In this document: in pieces, positions 3,828-33,095 of the stretch | Numbering within the stretch: position 1 is the first letter of the stretch | Layout of the letters: each line of letters begins with the position of its first letter | NCBI GenBank assembly: GCA_009927815.1 | Contig: RFMI01000062.1 | Span: 1-44,025 of the forward strand | DNA length: 44,025 bases | Source of the DNA: Betaproteobacteria bacterium | GTDB lineage: Bacteria; Pseudomonadota; Gammaproteobacteria; Burkholderiales; UBA3065 | Reading direction: 5' to 3' | Translations under genes and position numbers: made by a program | Notes under the pieces: generated by a model | Seen by the model: only the letters and a program-made list of their open reading frames with translations | What the model was told of the DNA's origin: nothing | Databases searched by the model: none

Positions 3828-3841
3828 GTCGTGTGCTCCCC

Positions 3842-11262: not shown

Positions 11263-14200
11263 GTGCGCCTGACCCAGATCAAGCTCGCCGGCTTCAAGAG
11301 CTTCGTCGATCCCGTGGCGATTCCGGTGCCCGGACAGTTGGTGGGCGTGGTCGGGCCCAATGGCTGCGGCAAGTCCAACATCATCGATGCAGTGCGCTGG
11401 GTGCTCGGCGAGTCGGCGGCCGGCCGGCTGCGCGGCGAGTCGCTGCAGGACGTCATTTTCAACGGCTCGAGCGGGCGCAAACCGGTGGCGCGCGCGTCGG
11501 TGGAACTGCTGTTCGACAACCGCGAGGGACGGGCGCCCGGGCAGTGGCAGCCGTTTGCCGAGATTGCGGTGCGTCGGGTGCTCGAGCGCAACGGTGACTC
11601 GCAGTTCTTCATCAACAACCTCGCGGTGCGCAAGCGTGATGTTGGCGACCTGTTTTTGGGCACTGGCGTGGGCGCCCGCGCCTACGGCATCATCGAGCAG
11701 GGCATGGTCAACCGCATTGTCGAGGCGCGTCCCGAGGAGTTGCGCAACTTCCTCGAAGAAGCCGCCGGCGTGTCGCGCTACCGCGAGCGCCGAAGGAGAC
11801 CGAGGGCCGGCTGGGCGACGCCCGCATCAACCTCGACCGCGTCGAGGACGTGCTGCGCAGCCTTGATGAGCAAATCGCCCGTCTGACCACACAAGCCGCT
11901 GCCGCTCAGCGCTATCGCGATCTGTCTGCCGAGCTGAAGACGGTGCAGGCCACGCTGGTGGGTTTGCGGGCGTATCTGGCCAGCGAGCAGGCACGGGCCG
12001 CTGAGATCGAGGCCGCCGCCACCGAGACCGCGATTGAGGCACAAATGTCGCAGGTGCGCGCGCTCGAAGCCGATGTCGAGGCTCTGCGGCAGACGCAAGT
12101 TCACGCCGCCGATGAGCTCAGTTCCCGTCAAGCGGCAATGTATGCGGCCGGCGCCGAGGTCGCTCGCATCGAGCAGAGCCTGCAGCATGTGCAGCAGACT
12201 CGCGCGGCGCTCGACGCCCGCATTCGGGCCCAGCAGCAGCGCGAATCCGAGGAGACCGAGCGCGCGCGTCAGCTTGCCGCTGCGCAGGCCACCGTCGCCG
12301 ACGAAATTGCCGGGGCGCAGGCGCTGGCCGCCGACGCTACGCGCCGTCAGCACCAGGCCGAGTCCGACTGCAGCGCCGCTGAATCGGCTGAGGCCGGGGC
12401 GCAGCAGGCGCTGGGGGAGATCGCAAGCCAGCGCCAGAGTGCCCGCAGCGCAGTGCAGACCGCCGAGTCCGAGGTGCGCATGGTTGGCCAGCGGCTCGAC
12501 ACCATCGCCCGCCAGCTGGCGCGGCTCGAATCGGAGATCGCGGCTGCGGCAGCCGACGGCAGTGCTGCCGACGATGCGGCGGCCGACTCCCGACTGGCCG
12601 ACCTGCAGCGCATGCTCGACGAGCAGACCGCCCTGGGGCAGTCATTGCAGGGCGAGATCAGCGCACGCGAGCCAGAGTTGGCCGTGTTGCGCGACGAGTT
12701 GACGCAACTGACTCGCGACCTCGCTGCCGCCCAAGCCCGCGCCGAATCGCTGGATGCGCTGCGCCGTCAGCAGGGCGCTGGGCTCGATCCCTGGCTCAAG
12801 ACACGCGGCTTGTCCGCGGCGCCTCGGCTGCTCGATGGTTTGCGGGTCGTGGCGGGTTGGGAGGCGGCTTTCGAGGTGGCGCTTGGGGCACGCCTGCAGG
12901 CGCGGCAGGTGCAGTCGATCACCGATCACAGCAGCGATGAGTTGCCACCCACGCTGGCTTTGATCGAGGCCGGTGCCAGTGATGCACGGTCGGCTGACGC
13001 GTCGGACGGCCTGACGCCGCTGGTGACCCGGCTGCAGGCGTGTCCAGCCGGTCTGGCCGCGTCGCTGCATGCGGCGCTGGCTGGCGTCTTCTGTGCTGAC
13101 GACCTCGCCAGCGCCTTGCGGGACCGCGGGCGTTTGCGCGACGGCGAGTCGCTGGTGTGCCCGAACGGCGTGCTGGTGTGGCGGCATGGCCTGCTGGTGG
13201 GTGGGCAGGGCGGGCAACTCTCGGTCCAGGCCGATTGGCTGACCCAGACCGCGCGGGTCGCCGAACTGGTTGCAGCCCGAGCGCCGCTGCAGGTCCGCCT
13301 AGAGGACGCGCAGGTGGCCCAGCGCCGCGACCAGCAGCAATGGCAGGCACTGCAACCGACCCTCGAGCAGACCCGTCGGGAGTTGCGAGGCCTCGAGGTG
13401 GCCGCTGCCCGCCGGCGCGAGGCGCAGGCGCAGGCGCAGGCGCGGCGCCAGGCCATTACCAGCGAACAAGCGCATCTGCAGTCGGATCAGCACGTGCAGC
13501 AGGACACGCTGTTGCGGGCGCAGGCCGAGGTTGCGGCGATGGCCGGCGAGGCGGCCGCCTTCGACGCGAGCTGGCAGGATGCGCAGACCGCTGCTGCCGA
13601 ATCGCGGGCCACCGCGCAGTCGGCGCGTGAGCGTCGTCGCCAAGCAGAGCGCGCTGCCCAAGAGGCGGCCTACCGCGTGCAGACCCTGCAGTCACGGGCT
13701 GCCGAGCTCGAGGCCAGCCGCGTCCAGGCGACGCAACGGGTGCAGCAACTGGCGGACGAGCTGGCCACTCTGCGTGCCGAGTCTGCGGCGCTGGAGGACC
13801 AGACCCTGCCGGCCAGTTTGGCGGAGGCGGTGCAGGCGCGTTTGCAGTCCGAGAGCGACCTGCAGACTGCTCGCGAGGCCAGCGAGGCAGCAGTGACGGC
13901 GCTGCGCGAGTCGGAGCAGCAGCGCATGGTCGCAGAACACGCTTTGACTCCGCTGCGCGAGCAACTGGCAACCTTGCGGGCGCGAATCGAGGCGGCGGTG
14001 CTGCAGCGAGGCCAGCAGCTCGATCTGCTGACAGGGATGGGGGTGGCGCCGCAGGCGGTCGATGTCCCCGAAGATCTCGATGAGGAGCCGCTGCGCCGCC
14101 GCGTCGGGCGTCTGCAGCGCGATATCGAGGCGCTTGGCGACGTCAACCTGGCGGCGATCGCCGAACTGGCCGAAGCCAGCGAGCGACGGGGCTTTCTGGA

Positions 14201-28497: not shown

Positions 28498-29451
28498 TCA
28501 GAAGCCTAGATCGAAGCAGCGCCCGTTCAGGCAGCGCAGGCGTTTCTTGCGGGCGATCTCAGCCAGACGCTCGTCCTCGGCTTTTTTGAGGGCAGCGGCC
28601 TCGGCCTCGGCTTTGCGCGTAGCCTCTTCGGCTTTACGCACGAGTTCCTTTTCCTCGGCGGCGGCCTTGGCGGCCTCTTCGGCGGCGAGTTTGTCGCGGG
28701 CGTCCTGCTCGGCTTGTAGGCGTTCGCTGCGCACTGTGTCCGATTCGCGAGCTTCCAGTTTGACGGTCTTGCCGGACAGTACAGCTTCGACAGCCGTCGA
28801 TTCGTCGATGACTTTGGTCGATCGCCCCACAACCAGAACGTAGACATCGTTGCAGCGCGTCTTGCGGGGGTCGCGAGCACTCACCGGACACTCCACATCG
28901 ACGCGAGGTTTGAGCGCGACGAACCGTTCGCAGGCCGCCAGCACCGGCTTGGCTTGGGGTGAGTCGGGAGTCGGCAGGGTGGTCGGGTCGGCTGCTGCAC
29001 CGCGAAGATTGCGCCGCGCCAGGCCGGTCTCGATGCATTCGCGATGCTTGGGCGAGAGGGGTGCGTAAAACGTTTCCCACACCTTCCCGATCTGCTCTGG
29101 TGCTGGCTTGACGTCTAGTCGCCGCGAGTAGCGCCCGGTACAGCCCGATACCGAGAGCGAGCCTTTGAAGCGGAATTTGCCTTCCCAATAGACCGTTTGC
29201 GGACCTTCGCTGCGAGGCGTAAACGGCACGACCGTCTCAAAATCGGGCGGTGCCAGCTCGCGCTCGATGCGCTCTCCAGTCGGCAGCAGAATTTCGATAT
29301 TGCAATTTTGCAGGCCCTCGGGCGGGACTGAGATGTTCAGCGCCGTCTCGCGGCCGACCATCAGCGGGCCGGCTGCCGATGAGACGGCCGGGGCGAGGCC
29401 CGACAGGGCGAGAGCAAGCGGCGGCAGAAGGCGCCAGAAGTTCGCGATCAC
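28498..29451 (-). CDS. Uncharacterised exported protein: signal peptide, Cys-containing N-terminal domain, Ala/Lys/Glu coiled-coil tail ending RCLNGRCFDLGF
   Basis: ORF with signal-peptide-like N-terminus (MIANFWRLLPPLALALSGLAPAVSSAAG) and no family I recognise; 18 bp downstream of the sensor kinase on the same strand. Confidence 0.7.
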   Translation of the reverse strand: MIANFWRLLPPLALALSGLAPAVSSAAGPLMVGRETALNISVPPEGLQNCNIEILLPTGERIERELAPPDFETVVPFTPRSEGPQTVYWEGKFRFKGSLSVSGCTGRYSRRLDVKPAPEQIGKVWETFYAPLSPKHRECIETGLARRNLRGAAADPTTLPTPDSPQAKPVLAACERFVALKPRVDVECPVSARDPRKTRCNDVYVLVVGRSTKVIDESTAVEAVLSGKTVKLEARESDTVRSERLQAEQDARDKLAAEEAAKAAAEEKELVRKAEEATRKAEAEAAALKKAEDERLAEIARKKRLRCLNGRCFDLGF

Positions 29452-29469: not shown

Positions 29470-32297
29470 CTAGCGCACCTTGTTTGCGACGGCTGATTCG
29501 ATGGTCTCAAACAACTTGATCTTGTCGATGGGTTTGCTCAGGACCGCATTGGCGCCCGCTTCGAACACGCGGTCGCGGTCGTCACTCATGGTGTCAGCCG
29601 TGAACGCGATGATGGGCAGCAGTTGTCCATGAGGCATCTCGCGGATCAGGCGTGTGGCTTCGATGCCACCCATGACCGGCATACGCATGTCCATCAGCAC
29701 CAGATCGAAGGCCTGCGCCGGGGCGCTGGCCGCCCGCACCTGTTCGACCGCCTTGCTGCCATCCTCGGCTTGCGAGACCCTGGCATTGGCCCGCTCCAGC
29801 ATGGTGCTCACCACCTCGCGGTTGATGATGTTGTCGTCCACAACCAAGATGCGCAGCCCCGAGACGTCTGCCAATGGGCGCTCTTCGTTGGATGCGTTGC
29901 CCTGGTCGATTTGCGCCACTGACGCCAATTCAACTTCGGCCCAGAAGCGCGATCCCTCACCGGGGGTGCTCGAGACGCCGACCATGCCTTGCATCAGTTG
30001 CGCCAGTTCGCGGCAGATATAGAGTCCGAGACCGGTGCCACCGTATTGGCGGGAGGTCGACGCATCGGCCTGCACGTAGGGCTGGAACAGTCGCTGCTGC
30101 GCGTCCGTGTCGATGCCGACACCGGTGTCGATCACTTCAAAGCGGAAGCGGTTGGCGCCGACCAGTTTTACGCTGAGGCGAATACTGCCGTTGCTGGTGA
30201 ACTTGAGGGCGTTGCTGATGAAGTTGGCAAGGATCTGGCGCAGCCGAACCGGGTCGCCAAACACGAGGCGTGGCAATTTTGGGTCGGCGTCGTAGACGAA
30301 ATCGAGTTCGCGGGCGCGTGCGATCGGCCCATACAGGCCACGAACGCCATTCATCAGTCCGGGCAGATCGAAGATCACCTGTTCCAGTTGCAGTCGGCCG
30401 GCTTCGATCTTGGTCATGTCGAGCACTTGCGTCATCAGGTCGGCCATTTCCTTGCCACTGATGACGATCTGGTTGATGTAGCTGTTGCGGACCGTGTGAT
30501 CGAGGTCAGGCGAACGCGCCAGTTCGGCCATACCGAGGATGCCATTGAGCGGAGTGCGCAGTTCGTGGTTGATGGTGGCGAGGAACTCGGTCTTCGCGTG
30601 ATTGGCGTTGCGCTGGCTCTCGGCCAAGGCTTCGGCCGCTTCACGGCGATCGCGTTCGAGGCGTAGCGATCTTCCAGCATTTGCCGGTTCTCGCTCTCCA
30701 GGCGCTGCGCCCGGACAATGGCCTGCTCGGCGAGTTTGCGTTCGGTGATGTCCGCGACCACACCGAGCACGCGTGTCGCCCGTTGGTCGTCTTTGAACAC
30801 GCCGGCATAGGCCGACAACCAGTGTTCGGAGCCGTCCGGCCAGATCACCCGGAACTCGCCATGCCAATCGCGCTGAGCGGTGATCACCGTGTCCTGCCAA
30901 CCTTTGAGGACGGCATCACGCTCGTCGGGGTGTATGGCCCGGTAATAGGTGTCGAGGGTCCAGAGCGGTTGCAGGCTGGTGTAGCCGTAACACTGGTCGT
31001 GGCGTAAAGACCGTTCGAAGGTGCCGCTGTCGATATTGAGCTCCCACGTGCCCATGTGGGCGACGTCCATCGCGTAGCTCAAGCGGGTTTGGCTCTCCCG
31101 CAACGCCGCCTGGGCGCGCTCACGCTCGGCGATGTCACGTGCGATCAGTGAGCCACCGACGATCTTGTTGCTCGCGTCGAAGATCGGCGACATGGTCACG
31201 GACACGCTGACCGAGCGACCGTCCCGATGGCGACGTGTGGCGTCGTAGGGCGGGACACGCAAGCCGCCGGCCAGGTTACCCAGAATGATGGATTCCTCAG
31301 GGGCTTGGTCGTCAGGCACCAGCATGAGGACTGATTTGCCGATCGCCTCATTGGGCGCGTAGCCGAACAGATCCTGGGCAGCACTGTTCCAACTGACGAT
31401 GGTTCCGTCCAGATCCATCGACACGATTGCGTCGGTCGACGATTCGACGATCTTAGCCAGCCGGTCGGCTGCGCTTTCGGCGGTTTTGAGTTGGGTCTCG
31501 TCGCGGATCAGCATGGTCAGGCCGCGCAGTTCGCCGGCCTCGCTGCGGTTCAGCGCGCAGGTCAGTGACACCATGGTTCGGACCCCTTGGGCCGACTCCA
31601 GGCACAAGCTGTGCTCGGTGGCGTGGTCGCCGGCCAAGGCATGGATCGATTCGAACAGCCGGCCGTCGGTGTCGCTGCCCGTGGCGACGCGGAACACCTC
31701 GGCCAGGCGGCGCTGAGCGGCTTGTGTCAGTTGCCAACCCGTGATGCGCTCGGCGACCGGGTTCATGCGCAGTATCCGGCCGTCGGCATCGGTGGTGATG
31801 AAGCCGGCCCCGATCAAGTCGAGTGTGGCTGACAAGCTCTGTTCTGTGTCCGCCAGGTGTTCCTCGGCGGTTTTGCGTTTGGCGACTTCGCTTTCAAGTG
31901 CCGAGATGGCGTCTTGCAATTGTTTGACCGACGGGATCTTGAGGATCTTCGGCAGCAGTGGCCACAGCCCGACCGCGGTGGCGACGGAGACCACAGCGGT
32001 GAACATCTTGGTTACCGCGTGCAGGCCGTAGTCGGGTGTCCAGATGGTCCAGATGTCCATCACGTGGGTCGTGCCACAGGCAAAGATGAAGACGCTGAAC
32101 AGCACCGCAACCCACCGGTACGGCACGTCCGGCCGCCGGCGCAGGAACGCAACGATTACCGCAGGGATCGAGAAGTAGGACAGGGCCACCACCGCGTCAG
32201 CGGTGACCATCGACCAGAGCAGAGTCGGGGTCCAGGTGAAGCAATACCCGTGCGGCAAATAACCTTGGCGGCCAAGAAAATCGCCCATGAACTCCAT
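29470..32297 (-). CDS. Hybrid sensor histidine kinase: ethylene-receptor-like N-terminal TM domain, multiple PAS, HisKA, HATPase, C-terminal receiver; apparent frameshift near 30665
   Basis: N-term GYLPHGYCFTWTPTLLWSMVTADAVVALSYFSIPAVIVAFLRRRPDVPYRWVAVLFSVFIFACGTTHVMDIWTIW; PAS VESSTDAIVSMDLDGTIVSWNSAAQDLFGY; HisKA FLATINHELRTPLNG; GTGLGLYICRELA; receiver LVLMDMRMPVMGG. ORFs 30435-32348 and 29470-30900 join if one C is restored. Confidence 0.9.
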
Positions 32298-32471
32298 TCG
32301 CGGCTCTCCGTGAAGTCTGTCGGTCAGTGTTGTGGCGAATCTCGCCATCGCGCCTGCGAGAGGGCTCGCTTGTGTTAAGCGAGTTTATCTACTCAATTAG
32401 ACAGAATAAAGCCAAAGGCCGACTTGGTGGGCGCTAATAACGGGCGGGATGGGCTCGGCTGAATCGACAAA

Positions 32472-32500: not shown

Positions 32501-32576
32501 TGGTGCCGGCAAGAGGAGTCGAACCCCCGACCTTCGCATTACGAATGCGCTGCTCTACCAACTGAGCTATGCCGGC
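32501..32576 (-). tRNA. tRNA-Thr (anticodon CGT), CCA encoded
   Basis: Minus strand GCCGGCATAGCTCAGTTGGTAGAGCAGCGCATTCGTAATGCGAAGGTCGGGGGTTCGACTCCTCTTGCCGGCACCA, full cloverleaf. Confidence 0.97.
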
Positions 32577-32657: not shown

Positions 32658-33095
32658 TCAAGCGGCCTCGGCGGGGCTTTCGCTGCGCCGCACCCGCAAG
32701 GTGAGGTCGATGCGTTCTACTTTGAACCCACGGGCAATGCGCTCCAGCGGGAAGCCTTGCAGCATGTCCAGCGGGATGTCGTGCAAGGTATCGCTGTCGA
32801 TGTCGTGGATGTGCAGGTGCGGTTCGGTATTGGGGTCATACAGCGTGACGCCCGCGCGCGAAGTGACGGTTTGCAACAGGCCTCGATCCACGAACAGGTT
32901 GAGCGTGTTGTAGACCGTCGCTCGAGAGATCCGTGGTCGGCTCTGGTTGATCACGGTGAACACCTGCTCGGCAGACAAGTGCTCTCGGCGCGTCATGATT
33001 AATTCAGCGATTCGCAAACGCGGCGAGGTGGTGTTGACGCCGATGCTGCGCAGGAGGCCCGTTAAGGCATCAGGGCTGATGAGGGGTCCGTTCAT
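32658..33095 (-). CDS. Fur-superfamily regulator, Irr/PerR-like without cysteines
   Basis: LRSIGVNTTSPRLRIAELIM...HLSAEQVFTVINQSRPRISRATVYNTLNLFVDRGLL; HLHIHDIDSDTLHDIP in place of the usual HHHxxCxxC. Confidence 0.9.
   Translation of the reverse strand: MNGPLISPDALTGLLRSIGVNTTSPRLRIAELIMTRREHLSAEQVFTVINQSRPRISRATVYNTLNLFVDRGLLQTVTSRAGVTLYDPNTEPHLHIHDIDSDTLHDIPLDMLQGFPLERIARGFKVERIDLTLRVRRSESPAEAA

Follow-up and report, generated by a model that had tools for sequence, protein, structure and literature searches.

Introduction

Outside plants, only a few ethylene receptors have been proven, namely those of Synechocystis, Azospirillum and an arbuscular mycorrhizal fungus (PMC11819568). In this family, Cu(I) is held by C65 and H69 (numbering of Arabidopsis ETR1, AtETR1), and the distance between H69 and the copper shifts when ethylene binds (PMC13012798; PMC11819568). 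Alanine scanning has defined seven AtETR1 residues that are needed for ethylene binding (PMC11819568), and a D25-K91 salt bridge has been proposed as the coupling between binding and output (PMC13012798; PMC11819568). Signalling by plant receptors depends little on kinase activity (PMC11819568), and in both Synechocystis and Azospirillum removing the receptor has the same effect as ethylene (PMC13012798; PMC11819568). The receptor of Synechocystis sp. PCC 6803, SynEtr1, also responds to light, through a separate domain (PMC6682694). AzoEtr1, from Azospirillum brasilense Sp7, is a proteobacterial receptor with measured ethylene binding and phenotypes, and a fragment of it comprising residues 1-130 binds ethylene when expressed in yeast (PMC11819568). 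Thus, while a sequence-only reading of the DNA analysed here was right that the bacterial family is known, "in outline" understated what has been published on AzoEtr1. Here we examined a hybrid histidine kinase gene of a Burkholderiales bacterium (host assembly of 1.76 Mb in 140 contigs), contained in a stretch of 44,025 nucleotides that we call the window, and compared its product with these receptors.

Results

The open reading frame list and the profile matches placed the hybrid histidine kinase gene on the minus strand, with its start codon at Met 32297 and its stop codon at 29470-29472; the reading frame and the start are those previously assigned. An alternative in-frame ATG lies upstream at 32348; conservation among the congeners begins only at 32297, and a GGAG at 32309-32306 would plausibly serve Met 32297 as ribosome-binding site. 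All flanking features lie on the minus strand as well. Downstream, 18 bases past the kinase, a hypothetical protein is encoded (28498-29451) that by eye carries an apparent signal peptide. Upstream are a tRNA-Thr(CGT) (32501-32576), which belongs to the syntenic context and stands outside the system, and a Fur-family regulator (32658-33095), for which no connection to the kinase was shown beyond synteny in the genus. Beyond the genus we found no conserved neighbour that would name a partner, the hypothetical protein and the Fur-like gene being syntenic in the genus only.

Residues 1-121 (31935-32297, minus strand) matched the Pfam family ETR1_N (PF25487; match at 31935-32222) with 128.6 bits and an E-value of 1.1e-37, the curated cut-off being 27 bits. 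This was the sole match in the 1.76 Mb of the assembly, and the 14 control genomes gave none. The profile search therefore assigned the N-terminus to the ethylene receptor family and not to an unrelated transmembrane sensor family. Alignment to AtETR1 showed that all seven residues required for binding are present, with codons on the minus strand: D34 (D25; 32196-32198), Y41 (Y32; 32175-32177), I44 and P45 (I35 and P36; 32163-32168), I71 (I62; 32085-32087) and the Cu(I) ligands C74 (C65; 32076-32078) and H78 (H69; 32064-32066). The spacing D34-Y41-C74-H78 reproduces D25-Y32-C65-H69 without gaps, as had been proposed. The equivalence of K97 (32007-32009, minus strand) with K91 also held, with an intervening loop three residues shorter. 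This helix-3 lysine, predicted to pair with D34, was invariant across a 13-sequence alignment. The AlphaFold2 model (mean pLDDT 82) contained three N-terminal helices, at residues 24-54, 61-83 and 90-111, followed by a long helix starting at residue 124 that we read as a predicted coiled coil. Neither a sequence search of the domain nor a fold search retrieved a relative of solved structure; the best fold match had an E-value of 0.68, and the helical matches were at chance level. The profile match, the full residue set, the three predicted transmembrane helices and purifying selection (see below) together bear out the proposal of an ETR1-type N-terminus.

The coiled-coil linker precedes three PAS domains (30756-31817, minus strand; approximately 31473-31817, 31131-31463 and 30756-30995). 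On the same strand, profile matches located a HisKA domain with the H-box NHELRTP (30397-30597), in a frame that differs from that of the sensor, a HATPase_c domain (29926-30258) and a receiver with the conserved Asp (VLMDMRMP) and Lys (LSKP) (29500-29850). HisKA, HATPase_c and receiver each scored above their cut-off with catalytic motifs intact, and in four congeners they share one frame with the sensor. All domains of the multi-PAS, HisKA and receiver architecture previously proposed were thus found, but a one-base break, which that proposal had overlooked, splits the sensor from the kinase and receiver in the sequence as assembled. Base-level alignment located this break at 30651-30663 (minus strand, near 30,657), after the PAS domains and before HisKA, where the window lacks one coding base that all congeners have. 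As a consequence, the sensor frame runs on to 30435 and finishes in unrelated residues, while HisKA, HATPase_c and receiver lie in another frame. The four congeners examined all encode the protein in an intact single frame of 947-952 aa. The window sequence was left unrepaired: the two halves were compared separately, and identity and dN/dS were computed from the separately translated halves joined together.

Automatic counts of frame breaks are inflated by antisense and non-coding open reading frames (1-2 in the controls G2/G3, 6-12 in the comparisons with G1), so only breaks in identified genes that were confirmed by base-level alignment were used. Relative to three congeners, four further genes in the 44 kb each lack exactly one coding-strand base: PGM/PMM (~10,250), SMC (~11,776-11,793), RNase E (~23,799) and FtsK (~41,160). 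A suspected break near 3841 was discarded, ribosomal protein L9 being intact there. Because five single-base losses occur within 44 kb, mostly in core genes, the break in the kinase gene is, as judged from sequence comparison, most likely an error of the assembly consensus, which is much likelier than gene decay. A genuine one-base deletion that kept the sensor-PAS half and lost the kinase, leaving a recent pseudogene, would agree with a break that is present in the given sequence and absent from all four congeners. We nevertheless consider it quite improbable, given the same kind of loss in the four genes above, receivers at other places in the assembly that are likewise divided between frames (for example at C1:6592-6929 and C104:2079-2413) and a dN/dS that is still low both in the sensor and in the parts after the break. 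As for a programmed frameshift or a receptor deliberately made in two parts, to which the overlap of the two long open reading frames might point, its chance appears negligible: the split occurs in no congener, TACGCCTCG shows no evident slippery heptamer, and the C-terminal frame starts within PAS-coding sequence in the wrong frame. With the break taken as a consensus error, the expected full protein is most likely ETR-3xPAS-HisKA-HATPase-REC, as the sequence of congener L008 suggests, and the indel errors in this contig mean that other frame breaks in this genome deserve distrust.

A gene of this architecture was found in all five genus genomes searched (the window and four others), at one syntenic place, with the recA side downstream and the tRNA-Thr and Fur-family genes upstream. 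L008 (CAMDGF010000004.1) comes from a metagenome-assembled genome labelled Klebsiella pneumoniae; the homologue that it encodes is 86% identical and sits in the syntenic place of the window's Burkholderiales genus, and the label looks wrong. Among the sampled genomes, the domain was matched in 26 of 399 from the order, the five genus genomes included (24 above cut-off), and in 30 of 399 from the phylum (29 above cut-off). Twelve genome loci were confirmed, at 46-86% identity. A tree of 36 domains placed the genus as sister to other Burkholderiales multi-PAS ETR kinases with a support of 100/98. Within the genus, the ethylene-binding domain showed a dN of 0.08-0.11 and a dS of 1.0-1.2, that is, a dN/dS of about 0.08-0.09, compared with about 0.3-0.5 for PAS1 and PAS2; these NG86 ratios are approximate, with dS near saturation. 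The sensor is under strong purifying selection and, compared with the two nearest congeners, is the best-kept sizeable domain. Congener G004 departs from this: its sensor shares only 57-58% identity with that of the window, I62 is replaced by Val, and one residue is inserted before the Cys.

Of the described receptors, AzoEtr1 (L078) carries the same eight key residues (DYIPICH and the Lys; equivalences from PMC11819568) and shares 46.5% identity with the window protein across 127 aa. Both proteins have PAS, HisKA and HATPase domains. However, AzoEtr1 is only about 525 aa long, with one PAS domain and a separate, overlapping response-regulator gene, whereas the window protein contains three PAS domains and a receiver fused to it, and no response-regulator gene lies beside its own. 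No cyanobacteriochrome domain, the light-sensing part of SynEtr1, was found in the window protein. AtETR1 resembles it in the succession of ethylene-binding domain, histidine kinase and receiver, and differs in having a GAF domain where the window protein has PAS. Closer relatives are the Burkholderiales ETR kinases L010-L015 (for example of strain UKL13-2), which have a sensor 61-66% identical and a homologous PAS region (48-50% identity over the whole N-terminal part in L010-L013) but lie in another neighbourhood, with a kinase half only about 31-38% identical.

Outside the Pfam match, alignment revealed a motif ahead of the first transmembrane helix, HGxC..W (H16-G-Y-C19-F-T-W22; 32232-32252, minus strand), that is nearly invariant among bacterial members and that the N-terminus of plant ETR1 presumably lacks. 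In a set of 67 sequences, HxxC was present in 59 of the 62 having both C65 and H69, and absent from four of the five without C65 or H69 (Fisher p 2e-4, phylogeny ignored, the exceptions being divergent sequences). This joint loss suggests, as a speculative idea to which we give rather low odds, that HGxC..W forms an additional site with metal or redox activity in bacterial receptors, functionally linked to the one where Cu(I) binds ethylene. Copper might enter there, or the motif might act as a redox gate, and bacterial receptors would then be joint copper/redox and ethylene sensors.

Divergence at the binding residues was seen elsewhere in the order and the phylum. Seven ETR1_N proteins of the order family f21 (L064, L065, L069, L070, L073, L074 and L077) have R or E in place of K91, and five of the seven carry D25N. 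A GGDEF output was found by Pfam in L064 and L074 and by eye, from a C-terminal signature, in L069, L070, L073 and L077; L074 has also lost H69 (F), H16 and C19. Since the Asp-to-Asn change cuts the affinity of the plant receptor about 100-fold (PMC13012798), the GGDEF proteins of f21 may be low-affinity ethylene-to-c-di-GMP switches, or they may have abandoned ethylene sensing. Among divergent ETR domains of the phylum, L112 and L113 carry H69R, and L111 carries K91S without HGxC; on these substitutions, the three are candidates for natural ethylene-blind receptors. In Maribacter phage Molly_1, a marine Bacteroidota phage, the 289-aa "hypothetical protein" gp065 (L079:3932-4801; NC_062751.1 36990-37859) matched ETR1_N at 60.9 bits (cut-off 27), keeps Y32, C65 and H69, and carries D25N and P36S. 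Its gene lies just ahead of the one for the endolysin, and two genes beyond follows the terminase large subunit. In the viral contigs, a search with gp065 matched itself only, and the window domain had no relative. A literature search on ETR-GGDEF and phage ETR proteins returned nothing specific.

Discussion

We conclude, with a probability of roughly 0.85, that the window gene encodes a bacterial ethylene receptor, in which a three-helix Cu(I)-dependent domain would be mounted on a hybrid histidine kinase, the frame break being an artefact. From what is known of the family, ethylene from outside the cell would bind at a Cu(I) ion coordinated by C74 and H78, both copper loading and ligand being deduced from the residues, and binding would alter the arrangement of the helices around D34 and K97. 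The signal would then pass through the coiled coil and the PAS domains and change autophosphorylation and the onward relay to the attached receiver. Judging from AtETR1, SynEtr1 and AzoEtr1, ethylene would most likely lower both. From the attached receiver, phosphate may continue to an HPt and response-regulator output. Genome-wide, seven HPt matches were found; those that we inspected seem to be parts of CheA-type or hybrid proteins, and the surroundings of the kinase gene contained neither a dedicated HPt nor a dedicated response regulator. At G000:C82 (L029), a hybrid kinase that carries two receivers and an HPt adjoins a receiver fused to an apparent adenylate/guanylate cyclase domain and might be the relay partner of orphan hybrid kinases, that of the window among them. 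The genome also encodes two Cu P1B-type ATPases. Self-production of ethylene by an enzyme of the EFE type was considered and dropped, the genome containing no DIOX_N protein (the 2-oxoglutarate-dioxygenase type of ethylene-forming enzyme), and for this reason the ethylene signal is probably external.

Two other readings of the sensor deserve consideration. The ETR fold might physiologically sense a signal other than ethylene, such as copper itself, redox state, light through a partner, or another small olefin or gas. The ligand is not readable from sequence, the nearly invariant HGxC..W could supply copper or redox chemistry, and SynEtr1 does sense light, although by a separate domain that is absent here (PMC6682694). 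Against these points stand the complete set of ethylene-binding residues and the 46% identity to AzoEtr1, and we regard such a signal as improbable. The idea that an unrelated transmembrane sensor family resembles ETR by chance has practically nothing left to it: an E-value of 1e-37, the presence of every binding residue and the 12 confirmed genome loci at 46-86% identity all contradict it, and the profile search refuted it.

Ethylene receptor kinases are already known in bacteria, and the window protein is a further member, correctly identified by the sequence-only reading. As a protein family it is ordinary; its interest is modest and lies in ecology. The genus has small genomes, of about 1.8-2.1 Mb, and one of its metagenome-assembled genomes comes from a pond. 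In water, ethylene arises from other organisms and from sunlight acting on dissolved organics (PMC6682694). Concrete mutational tests are offered by both the HGxC motif and the D25N/GGDEF branch. Because the gene is kept in all five genus genomes, as against only 26 of 399 sampled in the order, our findings suggest that sensing of environmental ethylene matters in aquatic bacteria that have no known association with plants.
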